From: Fluviicoccus sp.
GTDB taxonomy: Bacteria; Pseudomonadota; Gammaproteobacteria; Pseudomonadales; Moraxellaceae
NCBI RefSeq assembly: GCF_030646115.1
Contig: NZ_JAUSMX010000002.1
Location: 1-64,000, forward strand
Direction of reading: 5' to 3'
Length of the DNA stretch: 64,000 bases
Positions within the stretch are counted from its first letter, which is position 1. Every line of letters begins with the position of its first letter. The translations under genes and the position numbers were made by a program. Positions 3,764 to 38,404 of the stretch are shown one piece after another. The notes under the pieces are model-generated. The model did no database searches. It was given only the letters and a program-made list of their open reading frames with translations, and was not told where the DNA came from.

Positions 3764-5194
3764 CTATAAGTGCTTTTTGACTCTACAGCCCGTCAACTGG
3801 AATGCGGCAACCCCCAGCGCCACCAGAACCAGCCCTGCCGCCACCGAAAAGGTGGCACTTAAACCACTCGTCATCGCCAGCGGCACGTCCGGCAAAGCTC
3901 TTTCCGAAGCCCTTACAAACACAGCACCCATCACCGAAGCCCCCGTCACAAAACCCAAATTGCGAGACAGGTTTAGTAAACCGGAAATGACGCCGCGCTG
4001 CTCCGGCCGGGCCTCGGCCAGCACTGCCGTATTATTCGCCGCCTGAAACAGCGCAAACCCCGCAGTCAAACTCATCAACGGCAACACATAACCGGAAACT
4101 CCCCACCCGGAGGGCGCCATTGATAGCATCACTACCCCGCTCAACATCACCATCAGTCCAGCCAATGTCATCAACGGCGCGCCAAAGCGGTCAACCAGGC
4201 GGCCGGACGGCACCCCCGCCAGCGCAGCCGATGCAGGTCCGGCGGACATGACCATTCCCATCATAGACGTCGACAAGTCCAGACTGCAGGAGAGATAAAA
4301 CGGCCCCACCACCAGCGTCGCCATCATCACCGTTGTCACCAGAGCGCTCATGATGAATCCGCTGCTGAATACCGCGTTCCGGAACAACGACAATCGGATA
4401 AGCGCTGAATCGGTTCGGGTTTCCACCCACAGAAACAAGGCCAGTCCGACCGCTGCAGCCATCAGAAGCGGCAGGTTGATCAAGCCTGCATTTCCCCGCC
4501 CCGTGGTCATGGCCAGCGCATACGCCGCCAGTGTCATAGCCAGCAGCATCATGCCGGGCAGGTCTAAACCGGCACGGCCGGTTCTTGCTGCAGTCTCATC
4601 GGCCGGAAGGTAACGGGAAGCAAGCCATGCAGCAATAAGACCCAATGGAAGATTGATCACAAACAGAAACCTCCAGTCGAACGTGGCAATCATCAGCCCG
4701 CCCAGCGTGGGCCCCAGTGCAGTGCCTACGGCTGACATGGCGCCCAGAAAGCCCATGGCGCTGCCTGTCCGTTGCTTTGGCACTGTCTCACCGACCAGGG
4801 CCAGAGTCAGTGCCATCATCACGGCAGCTCCCATTCCCTGCAGTGCGCGGGTGGCAATCAGCCATCCCAGCGACGGGGCCAGACTGCACAGAGCCGAGGC
4901 CACCGTAAACACCCCTATACCGGTCAGCAGCACGCGCCGACGGCCCAGCAGGTCGCCCAACCGGCCCGCACTGACTACCAGCGTAGTGACTGACAGCAGA
5001 TAGGCAATAACCACCCACTGGACATCGGCAAAGGGCGCATCAAACACCCGCGCCAGTGTCGGCAAGCCAACATTGGCGATACTGGATGCCAGCGAGGACA
5101 ACAGCACGATCAGCGACAGGCTGGCCAGCGGCCGGTTGCTACGGGATTCGGCTCCAAGGTGCGTGGCGGTCTTGGGGAGAATGGATAAGGACAT
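3764..5194 (-). CDS. MFS transporter, DHA2-like (copy 1)
   Basis: Multiple TMs, MFS motif GRLGDLLGRRRVLL; paralogue of 10482-11894. Confidence 0.92.
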   Translation of the reverse strand: MSLSILPKTATHLGAESRSNRPLASLSLIVLLSSLASSIANVGLPTLARVFDAPFADVQWVVIAYLLSVTTLVVSAGRLGDLLGRRRVLLTGIGVFTVASALCSLAPSLGWLIATRALQGMGAAVMMALTLALVGETVPKQRTGSAMGFLGAMSAVGTALGPTLGGLMIATFDWRFLFVINLPLGLIAAWLASRYLPADETAARTGRAGLDLPGMMLLAMTLAAYALAMTTGRGNAGLINLPLLMAAAVGLALFLWVETRTDSALIRLSLFRNAVFSSGFIMSALVTTVMMATLVVGPFYLSCSLDLSTSMMGMVMSAGPASAALAGVPSGRLVDRFGAPLMTLAGLMVMLSGVVMLSMAPSGWGVSGYVLPLMSLTAGFALFQAANNTAVLAEARPEQRGVISGLLNLSRNLGFVTGASVMGAVFVRASERALPDVPLAMTSGLSATFSVAAGLVLVALGVAAFQLTGCRVKKHL

Positions 5195-5249
5195 GGTGGC
5201 TGGCTCCTGAAAAATTCATGGTTTCCAGCAGCCTAATGCTCCATCTGTC

Positions 5250-5298
5250 GTGGCGGAAGACGCAGCATTTGCAGTTTAATAGTGCACTAAACGCCATA
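5250..5298. promoter_or_regulatory. Conserved intergenic operator-like block (copy 1)
   Basis: GTGGCGGAAGACGCAGCATTTGCAGTTTAATAGTGCACTAAACGCCAT, nearly identical to 11946-11994. Confidence 0.65.
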
Positions 5299-5326
5299 TA
5301 TTCGAAATTTGCCTGAGGAATGCATC

Positions 5327-6220
5327 ATGTCATCGCCGGATTTCAATCTGCTGCTAACGCTGGATGTGCTGCTGGCGGAAGGCAATGTGGCGCGTGCGGC
5401 GCGTCGCTTGCGACTGAGTCCGTCCGCCATGAGCCGGGCGCTGGCGCGCTTGCGGGAAACCACCGGCGATCCTCTGCTGGTGCGGGCCGGGCGCAGCCTG
5501 ACGCCCACGCCCCGCGCCCTGGAGTTGCGGGCACAGGTCAGCCGTCTGGTGGAAGAAGCAGAAACGTTGCTTCGACCGGCGGAACAGCCGGATCTGAAGC
5601 AGGTGGTGCGCAGTTTCACGCTGCGCACCCGCGAGGGCTTCGCCGAAAATTTCGGTCCGCCGCTGATCGCCCGCGCCGATCAGGAAGCTCCGGGTGTGCA
5701 GTTATGCTTCCTGCCGAAACTGGACCGGCATAGCACCCTGCTGCGCGACGGCACGGTGGATCTGGAAACCGGGGTGGTGGATGCGGCGCTGGGGCCGGAG
5801 TTGCGGGCGCAGGCCTTGTTCCACGACCGTTTTATCGGCGTGGTGCGCGAGGGGCATCCGCTAAGCCGGGGGAAGGTCACGGTGGAACGTTATACCGGCG
5901 GGCGGCATGTCGGCGTGTTGCGCGATGGTATGGATCACGCACCGATTGACGCAGCGCTGAATCCGCTGGGGCTGGAACGACGAGTGGCGACGATGGTCGG
6001 CGGTTTCGCCACCGCGCTGGCGCTGGCGCGGTCATCCGATCTGATCGCCACGGTGCCGGAGCGGCATTCGGGCAATCTGCGGCAGGGCATGTTCAGTTTC
6101 ACGCTGCCGGTGGCGGTGCCGGAGTTCGCGGTGTCGCTGTTGTGGCATCCGCGCCTGCAGGCGGACCCGGTGCATCGCTGGCTGCGGGAGATGGTCAGGG
6201 ACGTGTGCGCCGGGGAATAG
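5327..6220 (+). CDS. LysR family transcriptional regulator (copy 1)
   Basis: N-terminal LysR HTH (NVARAARRLRLSPSAMSRALARLRETTGDPLLVR); divergent from MFS gene. Confidence 0.93.
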   Translation: MSSPDFNLLLTLDVLLAEGNVARAARRLRLSPSAMSRALARLRETTGDPLLVRAGRSLTPTPRALELRAQVSRLVEEAETLLRPAEQPDLKQVVRSFTLRTREGFAENFGPPLIARADQEAPGVQLCFLPKLDRHSTLLRDGTVDLETGVVDAALGPELRAQALFHDRFIGVVREGHPLSRGKVTVERYTGGRHVGVLRDGMDHAPIDAALNPLGLERRVATMVGGFATALALARSSDLIATVPERHSGNLRQGMFSFTLPVAVPEFAVSLLWHPRLQADPVHRWLREMVRDVCAGE

Positions 6221-10481: not shown

Positions 10482-11894
10482 TCAATCGGTGGAAGAGTCA
10501 CGCTTCAAGGAGGCAATAAATATCGCCGCCAGAATCAGCGCAGACGCCACCGCAAACGTCATCCGCATGCCCGCTGCCACTGCCTCCGGTGCTGTCACCT
10601 GCGCATTCACCATCGTCCAGGCAAAAACTGCCCCCATCACAGTCGCCCCAGTGATAAAGCCCAGATTGCGCGAGAGGTTAAGCAGGCCTGAAATTACCCC
10701 GCGCTGTTGCGGCCCGGTGTTGGCCAGCACTGCCGTGTTGTTTGCCGCCTGAAAAAGTGCAAACCCTGCCGTCAGGCACATCAGCGGCGCCACATAACCG
10801 GGAATTCCCCAGGTGCCAGATAGTATCGACAGCAGCATCGCCCCGGCCAGCATGGCTGCCAGTCCGCAGACCGTCATAGGGGTTGCGCCAAAACGGTCCA
10901 CCATCAGGCCAGACGGCACGCCCGCCAGCGCCGCCGCCGCCGGTCCGGCGGACATGACCAGACCCGTCAGCACTGGGGACAAGCCCAGCGCTCCGTCCAG
11001 GTAGAACGGTCCCACCACCAGTGTCGACATCATCACCGTTGTCACCAGGGCGCTCATGGCGAATCCCCTGCTGAATACCGCCTGCCGGAACAGAGACAGC
11101 CGGATCAGCGGAGCCACGGTTCGGGATTCCACCCACAGAAAAAGGCCCAGCCCGACAGCGGTTGCCGTCAACAGCAGCAGAAGGACCGACTCGTCGCGTA
11201 CCGTGGTCATGGCCAGGGCATACGCCACCAATGTCACAGCCAGCAGTACGGCGCCCGGCACGTCGAAACGGATGCGTCGGGTCTTCGGTAAAGTTGCATC
11301 CTGTGGCAGATAACGCGATGCCAGCCACACAGCCAGCAGTCCCAGGGGCAGATTGATGACAAACATAAATCGCCAGCCAAATCCGGCAATCAGCAGCCCG
11401 CCCAACACCGGCCCCATCGCGGTGCCGACGGCGGACATCGTGCCCAGAAAGCCCATGGCGCTGCCGGTTTTCGCTTTGGGTGCTGTCTCGCCCGCCAGTG
11501 CCAGGGTCAGCGCCATCATTACTGCCGCGCCGATGCCCTGCACCGCCCGGGCGGCAATCAGCCAGCCCAGCGATGGGGCCAGGCCGCACAGTACCGAAGC
11601 CGCTGTAAACAGCCAGATGCCGGCCAGCAGCAAGCGGCGGCGGCCCATCTGGTCGCCCAGCCTTCCCGCACTCACCACCAGAGCGGTGACAGACAGCAGG
11701 TAGGCAATCACCACCCACTGCACGTTGGCAAAGCTGGCATTGAAGACCTGCGCCAGCGCCGGCAGACCGACATTGGCAATGCTGGACGCCAGCGACGACA
11801 GCAGCACAATCAGCGAAAGGCTGGCCAGCGGCCGGTTGGCCGCAGAGCCAGTAGGCCGGCCGGTGGATGCAACGGCTGGAAGATTTATTCGCAT
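10482..11894 (-). CDS. MFS transporter, DHA2-like (copy 2)
   Basis: MFS motif GRLGDQMGRRRLLL; strong paralogy to 3764-5194. Confidence 0.92.
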   Translation of the reverse strand: MRINLPAVASTGRPTGSAANRPLASLSLIVLLSSLASSIANVGLPALAQVFNASFANVQWVVIAYLLSVTALVVSAGRLGDQMGRRRLLLAGIWLFTAASVLCGLAPSLGWLIAARAVQGIGAAVMMALTLALAGETAPKAKTGSAMGFLGTMSAVGTAMGPVLGGLLIAGFGWRFMFVINLPLGLLAVWLASRYLPQDATLPKTRRIRFDVPGAVLLAVTLVAYALAMTTVRDESVLLLLLTATAVGLGLFLWVESRTVAPLIRLSLFRQAVFSRGFAMSALVTTVMMSTLVVGPFYLDGALGLSPVLTGLVMSAGPAAAALAGVPSGLMVDRFGATPMTVCGLAAMLAGAMLLSILSGTWGIPGYVAPLMCLTAGFALFQAANNTAVLANTGPQQRGVISGLLNLSRNLGFITGATVMGAVFAWTMVNAQVTAPEAVAAGMRMTFAVASALILAAIFIASLKRDSSTD

Positions 11895-11945
11895 GGCGGG
11901 AAGCTCCTGAGTGGGAATGTTCAGAAGCGTAGTCAGTTGCAGGTA

Positions 11946-11994
11946 GTGGCGGAAGACGCACCATTTGCAGTTTAATGGTGCATGAAACGCCATC
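11946..11994. promoter_or_regulatory. Conserved intergenic operator-like block (copy 2)
   Basis: Contains perfect inverted repeat GCACCATT-tgcagttt-AATGGTGC (11958-11981). Confidence 0.7.
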
Positions 11995-12025
11995 TGTCCG
12001 TACGGTCTACCTTGGGAGTCACACC

Positions 12026-12919
12026 ATGTCTTCACCGGATTTCAACCTGCTGCTGACGCTGGATGTGCTGCTGGCGGAAGGGAATGTGGCGCGTGCGGCC
12101 AGACGTTTGCAGCTCAGTCCCTCGGCCATGAGCCGGGCGCTGGCGCGACTGCGGGAAACCACCGGCGACCCCCTGCTGGTGCGCGCCGGTCGCGGCTTGG
12201 CGCCCACGCCGCGCGCTTTGGAACTGCGGGACCGGGTCAGCCGTCTGGTCGAGGAAGCCGAAGCCGTACTGCGTCCTACGCAACAGCCTGACCTGCGGAC
12301 CGTGGTCCGCAGCTTCACGATCCGCACCCGGGAGGGATTTGCTGAAAATTTCGGTCCGGCGCTGATTGCGCGTATTGGCGAAGCTGCGCCGGGGGTGCAG
12401 TTGTGCTTTCTGCCCAAGCTGGACCGGCAAAGCACCCTGCTGCGGGATGGAACGGTGGATCTGGAAACCGGGGTGGTTGATGCCGCAATGGGGCCGGAAT
12501 TGCGCACACAAGCCTTGTTCAGGGACCGTTTCATTGGCGTGGTGCGCGCAGGACATCCGCTTTGCGAGGGGGAAATCACCCCGGAACGGTATACCGGCGG
12601 CAGGCATATCCAAGTATTCCGGGACGGGGCGGATTATGGGCCGATTGATGAGGCTCTGAACCCGCTGGGCCTGGAGCGCCGGGTGGTGACGATGGTCGGG
12701 GGCTTTGCCACGGCGCTGGCGCTGGCAAGGTCGTCCGACCTGATTGCCACGGTACCGGAACGGCATTCGGGCAATCTCCGGGACGGCATGTTCAGTTTTG
12801 CGCTGCCGGTTCCGGTGCCGGAATTTGCGGTTTCACTATTGTGGCATCCGCGACTGCAGGCAGACCCGGTGCATCAGTGGTTGCGCGACCGGGTGCGGGA
12901 GGTTTGCGCCGGGGGATGA
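12026..12919 (+). CDS. LysR family transcriptional regulator (copy 2)
   Basis: Near-colinear paralogue of 5327-6220. Confidence 0.93.
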   Translation: MSSPDFNLLLTLDVLLAEGNVARAARRLQLSPSAMSRALARLRETTGDPLLVRAGRGLAPTPRALELRDRVSRLVEEAEAVLRPTQQPDLRTVVRSFTIRTREGFAENFGPALIARIGEAAPGVQLCFLPKLDRQSTLLRDGTVDLETGVVDAAMGPELRTQALFRDRFIGVVRAGHPLCEGEITPERYTGGRHIQVFRDGADYGPIDEALNPLGLERRVVTMVGGFATALALARSSDLIATVPERHSGNLRDGMFSFALPVPVPEFAVSLLWHPRLQADPVHQWLRDRVREVCAGG

Positions 12920-30921: not shown

Positions 30922-30998
30922 GGGGGCGTTCCTCGGGCATAAAAAAACCCGCCAAGACAGACTGTGTAAAAACACTCGCAGTTTGAATAATGAGCGGC

Positions 30999-31030
30999 GA
31001 CAATGCCCGTACACCAGTACGGGCATTGTC
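30999..31030 (+). repeat. Stem-loop just upstream of transposase start
   Basis: GACAATGCCCGTAC-acca-GTACGGGCATTGTC perfect 14-bp stem ending 4 nt before ATG 31035. Confidence 0.8.
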
Positions 31031-31034
31031 ATTT

Positions 31035-32461
31035 ATGAGCTATGTCAAAGGCGAAGCGCCGGGCCAAACCAGCCTGTTCCCGGTATCCCTCGATGAGCTG
31101 ATTCCGGAAGATCATCTGGTCCGTGTCATCAGCGCCTATGTCGGCCACCTTGATCTGCCCGCCCTGGGCTTCACAAGGACCTCGCCCAAGCGTACCGGCC
31201 GTCCGCCTTACGATCCCGCCGATTTGCTCAAGCTTTATCTGTACGGCTACCTGCACCGCATCCGCTCCTCGCGCCGCCTGGAAGCGGAGTGCCAGCGCAA
31301 CGTCGAGGTCATGTGGCTGCTGGGGCGCTTGGCTCCGGATCACAAGACCATCGCTGACTTTCGGCGCGACAATCACGCGGGCTTCACCGCCCTGTGCCGG
31401 GCTTTTGTCCGCTTCTGCCGTCAGGCCGGTCTGGTAGCGGGGGAACTGGTCGCCATTGACGGCAGCAAGTTCCAGGCCGTCGCATCGCGGCGGCAACTGG
31501 TCACCCCGGCCCGACTGGAGCGGCAAGAGAAAGCGCTGGAGAAGCGCATCGCCGACTACCTGCAACAGATGGAGGAAGCAGACCGGCAAGAGGCGCGTAC
31601 CGAGATTGACCGGCGGGCGATGAAGGAGGCCTTGCAGTTGCTGAATGACCGGCGCGCCGATGTCCAGGCCACCCGCGCCCTGATGGCGGAGTTGGGGTTG
31701 AACCAGTTGGTCGCCACCGAACCGGACGCCCGCGACATGCGGACCGCGCAGGGGCAACGCGTGGCCTATAACACGCAAACGGCGGTAGACGGACAGCACG
31801 GGCTGATCATCCATCATGAGGTGACGCAGGCGGGGAGCGATAACACGCAGCTGGAGCCGATGGCCAAGGCGGCGATGGCGGTGCTGGAGCAGGAGGCGTT
31901 GCGGATGCCGGGTATTCCAACCTGAACCAGTTCCAGAACTGCGAGGATGCCGGAATTACCCCGTATGTACCGCCCAACCGGTCGGTCAACACCCAGGAGG
32001 ACGGCCGGTTGTTTGACCGTTCACGCTTTGACTACGATGCGGAGCAGGACGAGTATCGTTGCCCGGCCGGCCACCGGCTGGTGTTGAAGCAGCAGAATGC
32101 GCGTGACCGGAACCGTATTTATGCGGCCAACGCGGCAGATTGTTCGGGATGCCCGCTAAAGTCGCAATGCACGAAGGCGGAACGGCGTCATGTCAGTCGC
32201 CATGAACACGAGGCGGCAGGCGAGCGCATGGCGGCGAGGATGGCGGGATCACCGGACAAGATGGTGGCGCGGCGATCCCTGGTGGAACACCCGTATGCGG
32301 TATTGAAGTATTGGATCATGGGGCACGGCCGCCTGCTGATGCGGGGGCTGCGGGGAGCGGGAACCGAGATGGCTTTGGCGGTTAACGTATTTAACCTGAA
32401 ACGGGCGATCAATATCCTGGGCGTGGCCGGTATGCGGGAAAAGTTGCTGTCAGCGGCCTGA
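31035..32461 (+). pseudogene. IS1182-family transposase, frameshifted
   Basis: ORF 31035-31925 ends in ...EALRMPGIPT*; the expected continuation ADAGYSNLNQFQNCEDAGITPYVP lies in another frame to 32461. Confidence 0.85.
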
Positions 32462-32796: not shown

Positions 32797-33657
32797 ATGG
32801 CCTAGATATCAATTCGCTTCGACGGAGACTTGGTCACCAACAACCAAATCTCCATGCGTACACTTGGTAAGACGCTTCAGAACTTGCAGACTGTTTTTGA
32901 TCGCGCTGCAATCGAATACCATGAGAAGAAGCTCGAAAAAAACAAAAAAATGAACCCGAAATATTATTCTGATGTTGAGTTCATTGTACAACAACCAAGA
33001 CCCGGCAGCTTTATACTTGACCTTACATCAATTAGTACTACAACCAAGAAGATAATTGATCGGGTTGCTAATGTTTTAAAAGCATCTTTCGATGATGCGA
33101 TGGGAGATGGAATCAAAGAAGCAAATGCAATCACCAATCAAATTCATGAAATTAAGGCAAAATTAGCAATCGGAAATGATCTTATTGATAAACCAACTGA
33201 AGATAACGACTATAAAGATTATGCAGAGTATGCTATTGCCAGCAATTTCAATCATATATTATCGATCATTAGGGCTGATTCCTCCGGAAAGACAACTTTT
33301 GAAATTACGTTAGAAGGAACCCAAAAAACAACATTGACCTTTGACCGTGAAAAAGCAGAAAAGTTTGGATTGGCCATAACTGAAAGACGCCTTGGCCAGC
33401 CAAAGCTTTATATTGCAAAAGTAGAAGAAATGAATAATGTAATGTTGAAGGCAAAGGTTTTTAATGTACAAACCCAAAAGAAATCATCACTCAAATTTGT
33501 AGGAGGGGCTGATTTAATATCTGTCATTCCGTACTTTGAAAAAAAGAAGCTGATGAGGTTTGTCGCCTGCCCATTAATACAGTATGATGCAATCGACAAC
33601 AACGCTGGCGATCTTGTTTTTGTGAAGGTGATTGAAGATGGACTCACTGATCGATAA
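32797..33657 (+). CDS. Uncharacterised protein, about 275-286 aa; in-frame TAG at codon 3 from the best RBS/ATG
   Basis: AAGGAG RBS then ATG GCC TAG ATA TCA ATT CGC TTC GAC...; track start is TTG 32830. Confidence 0.6.
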
Positions 33658-34327
33658 GTATCTCAATGATATAACCAGTAAGTACCCCCCTCACCGCCTG
33701 GTTGTATTCTTTATTTATCTCTTTTCAATATATTTCTACAATTATAGTCAATCAAGCCTCCGGTTGGCACACGAAATTTCCATCTTTAAGGCAGCTGACC
33801 TCGGCTCGTTGATCTATGGCGAAGAATCATTCTTCACAATCTTTCATTATATTTTTGCCTTTTTTCTATGTATGGTAACCACGTTTTTCTACAGCAGCTT
33901 AAAACTTAGAACCTTTAAAATACTCACTTCATATTTTGAAAAAAGACAATCCTATATTGATGTATTAGTCAATATAATCAAGCCTGAACTTACTGCCAAC
34001 TCGCCAGCTGTTAATTCCACCATACTCAATCAGACAGCGGCAAGTTTATTAAGGGCCAAACTTGACGTTCAGAGGACTTACGCTTACGGTGAAATTTGCG
34101 CAGCATCGTTGTGTGTATTTATTTGGGGTGCCAATAAGTTCATTCTTAATGACTGGTTTTATACTTTGACTCTCTTGGCTCTAGTTTTGTACTTTCAATT
34201 TAAAAGTTACAGAATTTATATTTCCAAGCTTACCCCACACCACGTTACTTTGAGCCTTCTACTCAATAGAAAAATTACTTTCGAATATGAAATTGCAGAA
34301 ATAGCTCAGGATTCTTCCTCAATTTAA
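33638..34327 (+). CDS. Uncharacterised membrane protein (cargo block A)
   Basis: Several TM segments; 20-bp overlap with upstream gene. Confidence 0.7.
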   Translation: MDSLIDKYLNDITSKYPPHRLVVFFIYLFSIYFYNYSQSSLRLAHEISIFKAADLGSLIYGEESFFTIFHYIFAFFLCMVTTFFYSSLKLRTFKILTSYFEKRQSYIDVLVNIIKPELTANSPAVNSTILNQTAASLLRAKLDVQRTYAYGEICAASLCVFIWGANKFILNDWFYTLTLLALVLYFQFKSYRIYISKLTPHHVTLSLLLNRKITFEYEIAEIAQDSSSI

Positions 34328-35040
34328 ATTTTCTTAGCGACATCAATTACCGCATCATTCTTCATCTTTCTTAAAAGTGCTATAAATTGCGACTTCAATT
34401 CGGAGTCCATATTTTCTTTATGAAATATCATCAAACGAAGGCAACAAATGCAATCAATCAAGTTGCATCGCAAGGACAACCAAAATATATCCCTGCTAAG
34501 CTCCTTAATAGACTCATCAATTGCATGGCTATTACTATAATCCAGCGCAATATTTGCTGTATCAATGTGCTCATGCCCATCAATCATTTCCAAAACCTTC
34601 GCTCCATATTTCTCCATTGCCACAAATGCGTCTTTCGTGAATGAATTTGAGCTGAGTCGAAATGCCAATAATGGTGAAACAGGAGCTAGCTTCTTAATAA
34701 CACCAACATATTCGTCAAAATCTATGTCAGCTTTTTTCCCAATAGAAGCCGCAAAGCCAGCTTTAATTATGGGGGTAAGAAAATTCTTTATTTCGGCGCG
34801 ATTCACATCGATTGATCGGTCGTCGGGAAAAACTTCTTTGGCAGCCTCAAGATAAATATCGACGCATCGATTCACATCCGGAAGCTTTAATCGATTTAAA
34901 TTTGCCTGCAGTCGAAGCAATGAATATAAAGACTCATTCAATATTGCCAAGCCATCAAGCCTGCGCTTATAAAAAAATGAAACAAATGATGCAAGTAAAC
35001 CAAGTACTGCACCAGCAAGCAAATAAAACTCTTTTTCCAT
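34324..35040 (-). CDS. Uncharacterised membrane-anchored protein (cargo block A)
   Basis: N-terminal TM (YLLAGAVLGLLASFVSFFY) then 200-aa helical domain; convergent with 33638 gene. Confidence 0.65.
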   Translation of the reverse strand: MEKEFYLLAGAVLGLLASFVSFFYKRRLDGLAILNESLYSLLRLQANLNRLKLPDVNRCVDIYLEAAKEVFPDDRSIDVNRAEIKNFLTPIIKAGFAASIGKKADIDFDEYVGVIKKLAPVSPLLAFRLSSNSFTKDAFVAMEKYGAKVLEMIDGHEHIDTANIALDYSNSHAIDESIKELSRDIFWLSLRCNLIDCICCLRLMIFHKENMDSELKSQFIALLRKMKNDAVIDVAKKI

Positions 35041-35931: not shown

Positions 35932-36327
35932 CTAACCCACCCCAGCTCCAGAATTTCCTTCTCCTGCAAGCCCTCGCAACAACGCGAGATCGTGCCATTT
36001 CATCTGTTGGATCCTAGCATTCACCTTCCAGGCGTAATCCATCGGAGAAAGCGCCATTTTCTTGCCAGCATGTCGCCGACGATTGCAGATCGAACACGCC
36101 GCCACAATGTTGTCAGCCTTGTCCTTCCCACCATCACAACGAGCATGTAAATGTTCAGCTGTACACTGCAGTCCTTTGACTTGGGCAAGTGTCAAGCCAT
36201 GAGCTTGGGCGAAGACTTCGGGTTGAGATTGCCACATCGGAAGGCCACAGTAGAAGCAGCGGCCGGATTGACGTTGAAAAGCAGTGATTCGGTGTTTCTG
36301 GATAGCGGTTTTCATCGCCGACTCCAA
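35932..36327 (-). CDS. HNH endonuclease
   Basis: CFYCG...CTAEHLHARCDGGKDKADNIVAACSICNRRR. Confidence 0.9.
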   Translation of the reverse strand: MESAMKTAIQKHRITAFQRQSGRCFYCGLPMWQSQPEVFAQAHGLTLAQVKGLQCTAEHLHARCDGGKDKADNIVAACSICNRRRHAGKKMALSPMDYAWKVNARIQQMKWHDLALLRGLAGEGNSGAGVG

Positions 36328-36786: not shown

Positions 36787-36930
36787 ATGAGCGACTTGGA
36801 AACGAAGAAGACCGGACTTACTCCGAATTATTTACTTTGTATTGCAATGTCTTTTTCGCTTGTATTGATAAGTTGGGCTTTCGGGTGTTTGGAATGGATG
36901 AATAAAATCATCAATTTCAGATTAAATTGA
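36787..36930 (+). CDS. Tiny single-TM protein, tandem paralogue 2
   Basis: 47 aa MSDLETKKTGLTPNYLLCIAMSFSLVLISWAFGCLEWMNKIINFRLN; shares KKxGLT...LEWM. Confidence 0.55.
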   Translation: MSDLETKKTGLTPNYLLCIAMSFSLVLISWAFGCLEWMNKIINFRLN

Positions 36931-38404
36931 TATTTTCCGACGGGACATGCAAATGAAGTTGAATTTTCTTTATAACTTCCTCAACTTCAGACTCATTATC
37001 AATCAAGTACGTTATATTCACTAACTCCTCATTCATAACTTCAACATCATCACAGACAACCCGAGCCACTCTTCTTAAATCCGTATTTAAAATAGGCTCA
37101 CTCACCACCACCACTTTTCTTTTGAATGACAAATCAAATAATGATCTGATTAATTCGATAGACTCACTCATCAACCCTAATATCATTCCATAATCATCAT
37201 CATCACTTACAATTGACTCCTCTACAATAATCATGCTTTCAGCCTTTTTCAATTTTTCGTATTCAACTTCGTCAACCACTTTATAATCATGCATGACATC
37301 GATTAATTCGCCAGCCGACTTTCTAAATTCTATCGGATGACGTGATCGCCCTAGATAACTTTCTATTGATACTGGCAACCCAATAAACACACAATAATCC
37401 TCTATTAAGCCATTCATGGTTCGCCTCATTGACAATATATTCATAGATTTATCTTTAATAATGCCATCAAAATCCTCATCAGCCTTCTTTATTCCTAACG
37501 ATGTAAAATCAGGAGTTTTAATCTTATCAATTGAATCATCAAATATTCTATTGAAAGCACTTATCAAGTCCAAGGCTTCATCATAATTTCTGCGTGTGAA
37601 CTCGCGATTGTGAGCAATCAAGTTTCGCAAAGTTTTCAGTCTTTCCCATTGGTATTTTATTTGCTCTTCATTCATACCTTCAACAATATCTTGAAAAGAC
37701 TGATTCCAATGTGACCTAGGAATAAAATCCAGCAGCTTGTTGATTGTATGATCAGCCGTTTCAACTGAAGCAGATCGCTGGTAATCAACCAACAACTTAT
37801 CAACCAAATCACAAGACATCCCACGGTAACTATCAAACAAGAATGATGATAACGTTTCGAAATTTGCATTCTGTAGAATATTGTCCCTACCTTTATTTCC
37901 ATCCGAATCGCCACATTTTTGTTTTTTTTGCAAATCCTCTTTGAAAGCCTTAGGTACTTTAACTGAAGCCCAATTAGAACCATGAGCCTTATACATAATA
38001 TAAGTTATAAGATGACGAAGCTTATTCTCAATCAGATTAATCTCCGAATAAATTAGACATGAATAATGATGCGATAAATCATCATGAAGCATATCAACCC
38101 TAAACCCCAATTGACCAATCACCCTCCTAATTTCATCAATTATTAATCCTGCATTTTCTATTTTCTCCTTGGAAATTTTTTTATGAATACATAGATGAAA
38201 ACATCTATCATCGCCTGGAAGTTCAAGAACTATAATTTTTAGATTGCATACAAACCCTTTACCACAACTAACGGTGCCTCTCTTGATGATTAATTTTGTG
38301 CTTTTCGTACATAGAAGCCGCAAGAAATCATCATTATTATTTAACCCTAAAAATCCGTTATGGCTATTAACCATGAATTCCACTTTGAAATCCATATTAC
38401 TCAC
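36917..38404 (-). CDS. HEPN-domain protein (Swt1-like), putative defence/RNase
   Basis: RX4H motif in LKTLRNLIAHNREFTRRNYDEAL; upstream ENKLRHLITYIMYKAHGSNW resembles Swt1-like HEPN architecture. Confidence 0.65.
   Translation of the reverse strand: MSNMDFKVEFMVNSHNGFLGLNNNDDFLRLLCTKSTKLIIKRGTVSCGKGFVCNLKIIVLELPGDDRCFHLCIHKKISKEKIENAGLIIDEIRRVIGQLGFRVDMLHDDLSHHYSCLIYSEINLIENKLRHLITYIMYKAHGSNWASVKVPKAFKEDLQKKQKCGDSDGNKGRDNILQNANFETLSSFLFDSYRGMSCDLVDKLLVDYQRSASVETADHTINKLLDFIPRSHWNQSFQDIVEGMNEEQIKYQWERLKTLRNLIAHNREFTRRNYDEALDLISAFNRIFDDSIDKIKTPDFTSLGIKKADEDFDGIIKDKSMNILSMRRTMNGLIEDYCVFIGLPVSIESYLGRSRHPIEFRKSAGELIDVMHDYKVVDEVEYEKLKKAESMIIVEESIVSDDDDYGMILGLMSESIELIRSLFDLSFKRKVVVVSEPILNTDLRRVARVVCDDVEVMNEELVNITYLIDNESEVEEVIKKIQLHLHVPSENINLI

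Follow-up and report, generated by a model that had tools for sequence, protein, structure and literature searches.

Which genes of a low-GC block in a Fluviicoccus genome belong together, and what might they do? The block lies within the 64,000-nucleotide stretch of DNA analysed here (the window), and its GC content of 0.36–0.38, as against about 0.62 in the surrounding genome region, bears out the AT-rich character ascribed to it in a sequence-only reading. That reading had described three open reading frames of unrecognised families, with an overlap of 20 bp between genes 1 and 2 and a convergent gene 3, as a single unit in a prophage island with the soluble-plus-membrane layout of a defence or toxin module. 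The frames, the overlap and the orientation of gene 3 were all recovered at the positions it gave (Table 1). Genes 1 and 2 are real beyond chance, as judged from their matches to phrog_28486 (E=1e-63) and phrog_31922 (1e-15), respectively, both of which are PHROGs families of unknown function. The families were rightly called unrecognised, in that genes 1–3 had no accepted match in Pfam and no match at E≤1 in PADLOC 2.0.0.

Table 1. Coordinates of the features discussed (window positions unless a related locus, L002, L018 or L029, is named)
Feature	Coordinates	Strand	Observations
MFS-type transporter plus LysR-type regulator, divergent pair	3764-6220		similar to the next pair, the openings being almost the same; apparent duplication
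MFS-type transporter plus LysR-type regulator, divergent pair	10482-12919		as above
Transposase (DUF772 domain) in two ORFs	30990-32461	+	immediately precedes gene 1; resembles a disrupted insertion sequence
Gene 1, soluble protein of phrog_28486	32797-33657	+	PHROGs E=1.2e-63, nearly full length; start ATG 32797, AAGGAG upstream
In-frame TAG at codon 3, gene 1	32803-32805	+	translation; sense codons in relatives; frame open from 32806 to 33657 after TAG
Gene 2, membrane protein of phrog_31922	33638-34327	+	PHROGs E=1e-15; conserved directly after gene 1; four-helix model; start ATG 33638
Gene 3, convergent orphan, N-terminal hydrophobic anchor	34324-35040	-	ORF; no family match; 4 bp overlap with gene 2
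HNH endonuclease-like ORF	35932-36327	-	near phage HNH families (phrog_2118, 3.6e-15)
495-aa protein, Swt1-like HEPN domain	36917-38404	-	Pfam 3.4e-7; RNLIAH (Rx4H) motif; PADLOC candidate PDC-M34B (2.6e-8)
Relative of part of the HEPN protein, provirus L018	6-389		2.6e-10
PDC-S42 protein, L002	2518-3474	-	E=3.8e-120; directly upstream of diverged gene 1
DUF7946-like gene, L029	101-1749	-	the next gene codes for a protein with apparently two membrane spans; a baseplate-type gene adjoins

The conserved unit consists of genes 1 and 2. In the window a phrog_28486 gene is followed, in overlap, by a phrog_31922 gene. The former family is scarce, being present in 2/369 genomes in the class, 3/399 in the phylum and 2/295 in the order, with the window's own genome counted in each case. 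Neither tblastn searches of phages with gene 1, gene 2 and their relatives, nor the corresponding searches of plasmids with gene 1 and its relatives, nor single-sequence pattern scans returned any match. Alignment-guided scans, the first of which (A1, limited to two degenerate patterns) gave nothing, added four viral-contig loci, two of them nearly identical, and nine named genome contigs: Photobacterium damselae, Aeromonas salmonicida, Balneatrix alpica, Marinospirillum celere, Pseudomonas sp. EpS/L25, Gallionella sp., Burkholderia sp., Paraburkholderia bryophila and Phormidium tenue. The pair thereby spans gamma- and beta-proteobacteria as well as a cyanobacterium, Phormidium tenue. At every related locus gene 1 is followed by a gene-2-like membrane-protein gene at a spacing of -4 to +2 bp (-20 in the window), where some of the relatives' second genes lie beyond a blast match to gene 2 of the window and were assigned by position, length and alignment. 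A diverged gene 1 copy in genome G072 likewise overlaps a neighbouring membrane-protein gene. When phrog_31922 was searched independently, matches were found beside phrog_28486 in genome G705 and in both proviruses tested; a further match, in genome G550 (E=1.3e-4), covers 66 columns of a 528-codon frame. In species whose copies of the pair can be aligned as DNA (75–90% identical) the homology starts just before gene 1 and stops where gene 2 ends or no more than about 75 bases from that point; the transferred unit is close to exactly two genes. Genes 1 and 2 make up a genuine mobile module that as yet has no name, its novelty being judged against PADLOC-DB 2.0.0 (2023) and the open-access literature; in the latter no paper was found for DUF7946 (see below), the LAPAL motif or the PHROG numbers, and a later or closed-access report is possible.

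The co-occurrence in other genomes and defence islands that had been proposed as a check of the three-gene unit was thus found for genes 1 and 2, adjacent in all relatives, and failed for gene 3. The latter, with hydrophobic segments at residues 5-23 and, more weakly, 188-206, matched no entry in any family library (Pfam, PADLOC and PHROGs included) and had no relatives in 229 genomes, in the phage, plasmid and viral sets, or at the other loci of the pair. It was consequently rejected as a third component, and is a neighbour of the conserved unit. Nor was the prophage island confirmed: the region at 30-39 kb of the window showed no recognisable gene for an integrase, a terminase or a capsid protein, and contains an Amidase_2 ORF in addition to the broken transposase, the HNH ORF and the HEPN ORF. 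The protein with the HEPN domain is probably a separate defence-type gene of the same low-GC island.

L014 and L018 are P2-like proviruses, the former nearly identical to L015 and to the A. salmonicida locus (L021), and in both the pair has a gpA-like replication gene on one side and the portal gene on the other. For P2-like phages, the gpA-gpQ interval was described by Rousset et al. 2022 (PMC9122126) as a hotspot at which anti-phage systems accumulate. This placement holds for L014 and L018, not for the window itself, and the L014 hotspot also carries SLATT and DUF2971 (PDC-S31) genes. The provirus L019 is inovirus-like, with a gene that by eye resembles Zot, and its pair adjoins an HNH mREase_IV-like gene. 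The Balneatrix pair resides in an integron-like cassette, beside a TIR gene and bounded by attC-like sites, of which three were found versus 0.06 expected from shuffles. Among the remaining loci, the gene upstream of the pair is PDC-S42 in G072 (E=4e-120) and PDC-S05 in Gallionella, the end of a NERD-UvrD gene (PADLOC C3a187) lies immediately ahead of gene 1 in Pseudomonas sp., an McrBC-like pair lies nearby in Burkholderia, and in Paraburkholderia genes for a tyrosine integrase and for G2P-type replication come after the pair. No recognised defence gene adjoins it in Photobacterium, Marinospirillum or Phormidium. For comparison, ten genes located >5 kb from the pair gave one weak PADLOC match. 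The survey of neighbours is small and was partly chosen by eye, and the defence-gene neighbourhood is an association, not proof. As a separate observation, the PDC-S42 protein of L002 consists of an N-terminal part, one membrane span and a C-terminal beta-rich part, a layout that by eye resembles that of gene 1.

Structure prediction combined with a fold search, also proposed in the sequence-only reading, gave fold matches for gene 1 and none for gene 2. The gene 1 model is of good confidence (mean pLDDT 86, pTM 0.81) and comprises an N-terminal alpha/beta part and a C-terminal barrel. The barrel is of the OB type, since its order of elements, strand-strand-strand-helix-strand-strand, is that of the OB fold. 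Fold matches in the PDB include SilF, RPA32, IF5A and S1 domains, none of them below E=0.001. Among viral models, three proteins match most of the gene 1 chain at about 3e-08, and the first of these (E=2.8e-8; TM-score 0.37, 6% identity) is named DUF6575. The gene 2 model is of moderate confidence (pLDDT 75) and all helical, with four long helices, while hydropathy gives 2-4 strong segments depending on the family member. Matches of the gene 1 profile to influenza hemagglutinin in the PDB (best E=0.0014, about 20 bits) were confined to the helical middle region and were put down to coiled-coil similarity, and matches to Porin_5 and mevalonate kinase were taken as chance. At the level of sequence profiles, the N-terminal half of gene 1 aligns collinearly with DUF7946 (PF25678) and LAPAL_fam (NF053583), which match 6/13 and 9/13 members of the gene 1 family, respectively, all below the curated cut-offs; the window protein scores 17.1 of 27 bits and 29.2 of 60 bits. 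Membership is not claimed, as these cut-offs were not reached. The DUF7946 relative at L029, a soluble gene followed by a gene for a two-span membrane protein, has the same soluble-plus-membrane layout in another subfamily.

In combination, these observations lead us to assign a probability of roughly 50% to the reading that genes 1 and 2 form a mobile two-gene anti-phage module that would act like RexAB. An anti-phage role is suggested because the pair recurs in prophage defence hotspots, in an integron-like cassette array and in chromosomal islands of unrelated bacteria. The notion of a sensor that switches an effector arises because an OB-type soluble protein and its four-span partner ride elements that compete with phages. 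The ligand, gating and killing steps that we infer would run as follows. The C-terminal OB-type barrel of cytoplasmic gene 1 would bind something produced during infection, with nucleic acid or a nucleotide as the likeliest candidates, and the N-terminal alpha/beta domain would relay the signal; the four-span gene 2 product may then permeabilise or depolarise the inner membrane and stop growth, which would abort the phage cycle. Counting in favour are the adjacency of the pair, the two-gene extent of the DNA homology, the placement in hotspots and in a cassette beside a TIR gene, the defence-type neighbours, the OB-type barrel, the match to the DUF6575 model and the precedent of RexAB, Sbash and RexABpp (discussed below). 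Counting against are the three loci without a defence neighbour, the small and partly eye-chosen survey, the weakness of the OB matches together with the many things that OB folds bind, the moderate model of gene 2 and its lack of a fold match, and the absence of homology to the lambda Rex and Butters proteins. With a chance just short of even, we tentatively propose the broader formulation, namely an undescribed, horizontally mobile anti-phage system in which a DUF7946-like/OB-barrel protein is the sensor and a four-span membrane protein the effector, present in at least 2 phyla and on mobile platforms of several kinds (proviruses, both P2-like and inovirus-like, as well as integron-like cassettes and chromosomal islands). 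The defence layout claimed initially is accordingly retained for the pair, on the strength of its co-conservation and its presence in defence hotspots elsewhere, and dropped for gene 3.

Two other functions were weighed for the family. The pair could be an addiction-type or toxin-antitoxin module, in which gene 1 restrains a toxic membrane protein encoded by gene 2 and thereby retains the mobile element, with defence at most a by-product. Two small, overlapping and tightly coupled genes that move as a unit would suit such a role, as would their presence in an integron-like cassette array; toxin-antitoxin modules are common in integron cassette arrays. However, gene 1 comes first, is larger than the usual antitoxins and is a two-domain protein with an OB-type barrel, and no similarity to any catalogued toxin or antitoxin family was found, which makes this explanation unlikely. 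Alternatively, the genes may be cargo with a role in the envelope, in lysogenic conversion or in the phage structure. The last of these is what the NCBIfam label of LAPAL_fam, 'putative phage structural protein', would suggest from its sub-threshold matches, and the DUF7946 relative does lie beside a baseplate-type gene. Most of the loci are not phages but an integron-like array and chromosomal islands, and in the P2-like proviruses the pair occupies the accessory hotspot rather than a structural operon. The structural label probably reflects prophage location, and we regard the cargo role as improbable.

The copy in the window requires a separate assessment, as it is probably inactive, judging from the stop at codon 3. 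This TAG lies inside gene 1 since the aligned relatives have sense codons at the same position (start region MAKILLHFEGD in relatives, MA*ISIRFDGD in the window), and the match to the gene 1 family in the window's own genome is interrupted by one TAG. It is fairly likely that gene 1 is a pseudogene here and that the block is a dead remnant, functionless at present. Besides the stop codon, such decay is indicated by lone departures of the protein at 15 near-invariant positions (0-7 in other members), by its long end branch in the tree (1.39 versus a median of 0.34) and by the neighbouring transposase, which is broken into two ORFs. Still, there is a single stop, and the other 283 codons of gene 1 as well as all of gene 2 are open. 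The stop may be recent or a sequencing error, and the long branch could equally mark a diverged subfamily. Translation might also restart at TTG 32830, the next common start, with loss of strand 1 and the conserved FDGD motif, or begin unusually at ATA 32806. Decay of this kind would affect the window copy but not the family at large, and the anti-phage reading of the pair can stand alongside it.

If the anti-phage reading is true, gene 1 would bring a further sensor family to the two-gene abortive-infection pairs, a class that is growing, and a function would be given to the nameless families phrog_28486 and phrog_31922, perhaps also to the DUF7946/LAPAL group. Intact copies of the pair exist in cultured strains, so that the proposal is directly testable.

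The pair can be set beside known systems. It shares with the P2-like hotspot systems (PMC9122126) the location given in that paper, which it occupies in L014 and L018; it differs in having no PADLOC 2.0.0 model, and the comparison is one of location. DUF6575 occurs in a validated defence system of E. coli (Vassallo et al. 2022, PMC9519451), and a phage protein carrying that label gave gene 1 its best match among viral models. The match is to this phage protein and at the level of the fold, with no sequence match to Pfam DUF6575 in any of the 13 members of the gene 1 family. In layout the pair is like RexAB of lambda, RexABpp of the P. putida prophage P1 (PP_5643/PP_5644) and gp30-gp31 of Sbash and Butters, all prophage-borne adjacent genes with a soluble protein first and a four-span membrane protein second; for RexABpp and Sbash the likeness is by description, the sequence comparison covering lambda and Butters. 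In that comparison hhalign gave probabilities of 0.5% or less (gene 1 alignment A4: 0.5% against lambda RexA, 0.2% against Butters gp30), gene 2 had no sequence similarity to RexB or gp31, and RexA (8twq, present in the PDB set) did not appear in the top 50 fold matches of gene 1. As homologues, lambda RexAB and Butters gp30/gp31 were hence rejected, and gene 1 has no detectable homology to RexA, whereas the adjacent four-span partner is present in the form of gene 2 with the four long helices of its model. In lambda RexAB, Sbash gp30/31 and RexABpp the membrane-bound partner causes membrane damage and growth arrest (PMC7542560, PMC12894663); for RexABpp, over-expression of the soluble partner reportedly triggers an arrest that depends on the membrane one. 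By sequence the pair stands outside RexAB, and it is at most RexAB-like in its action.
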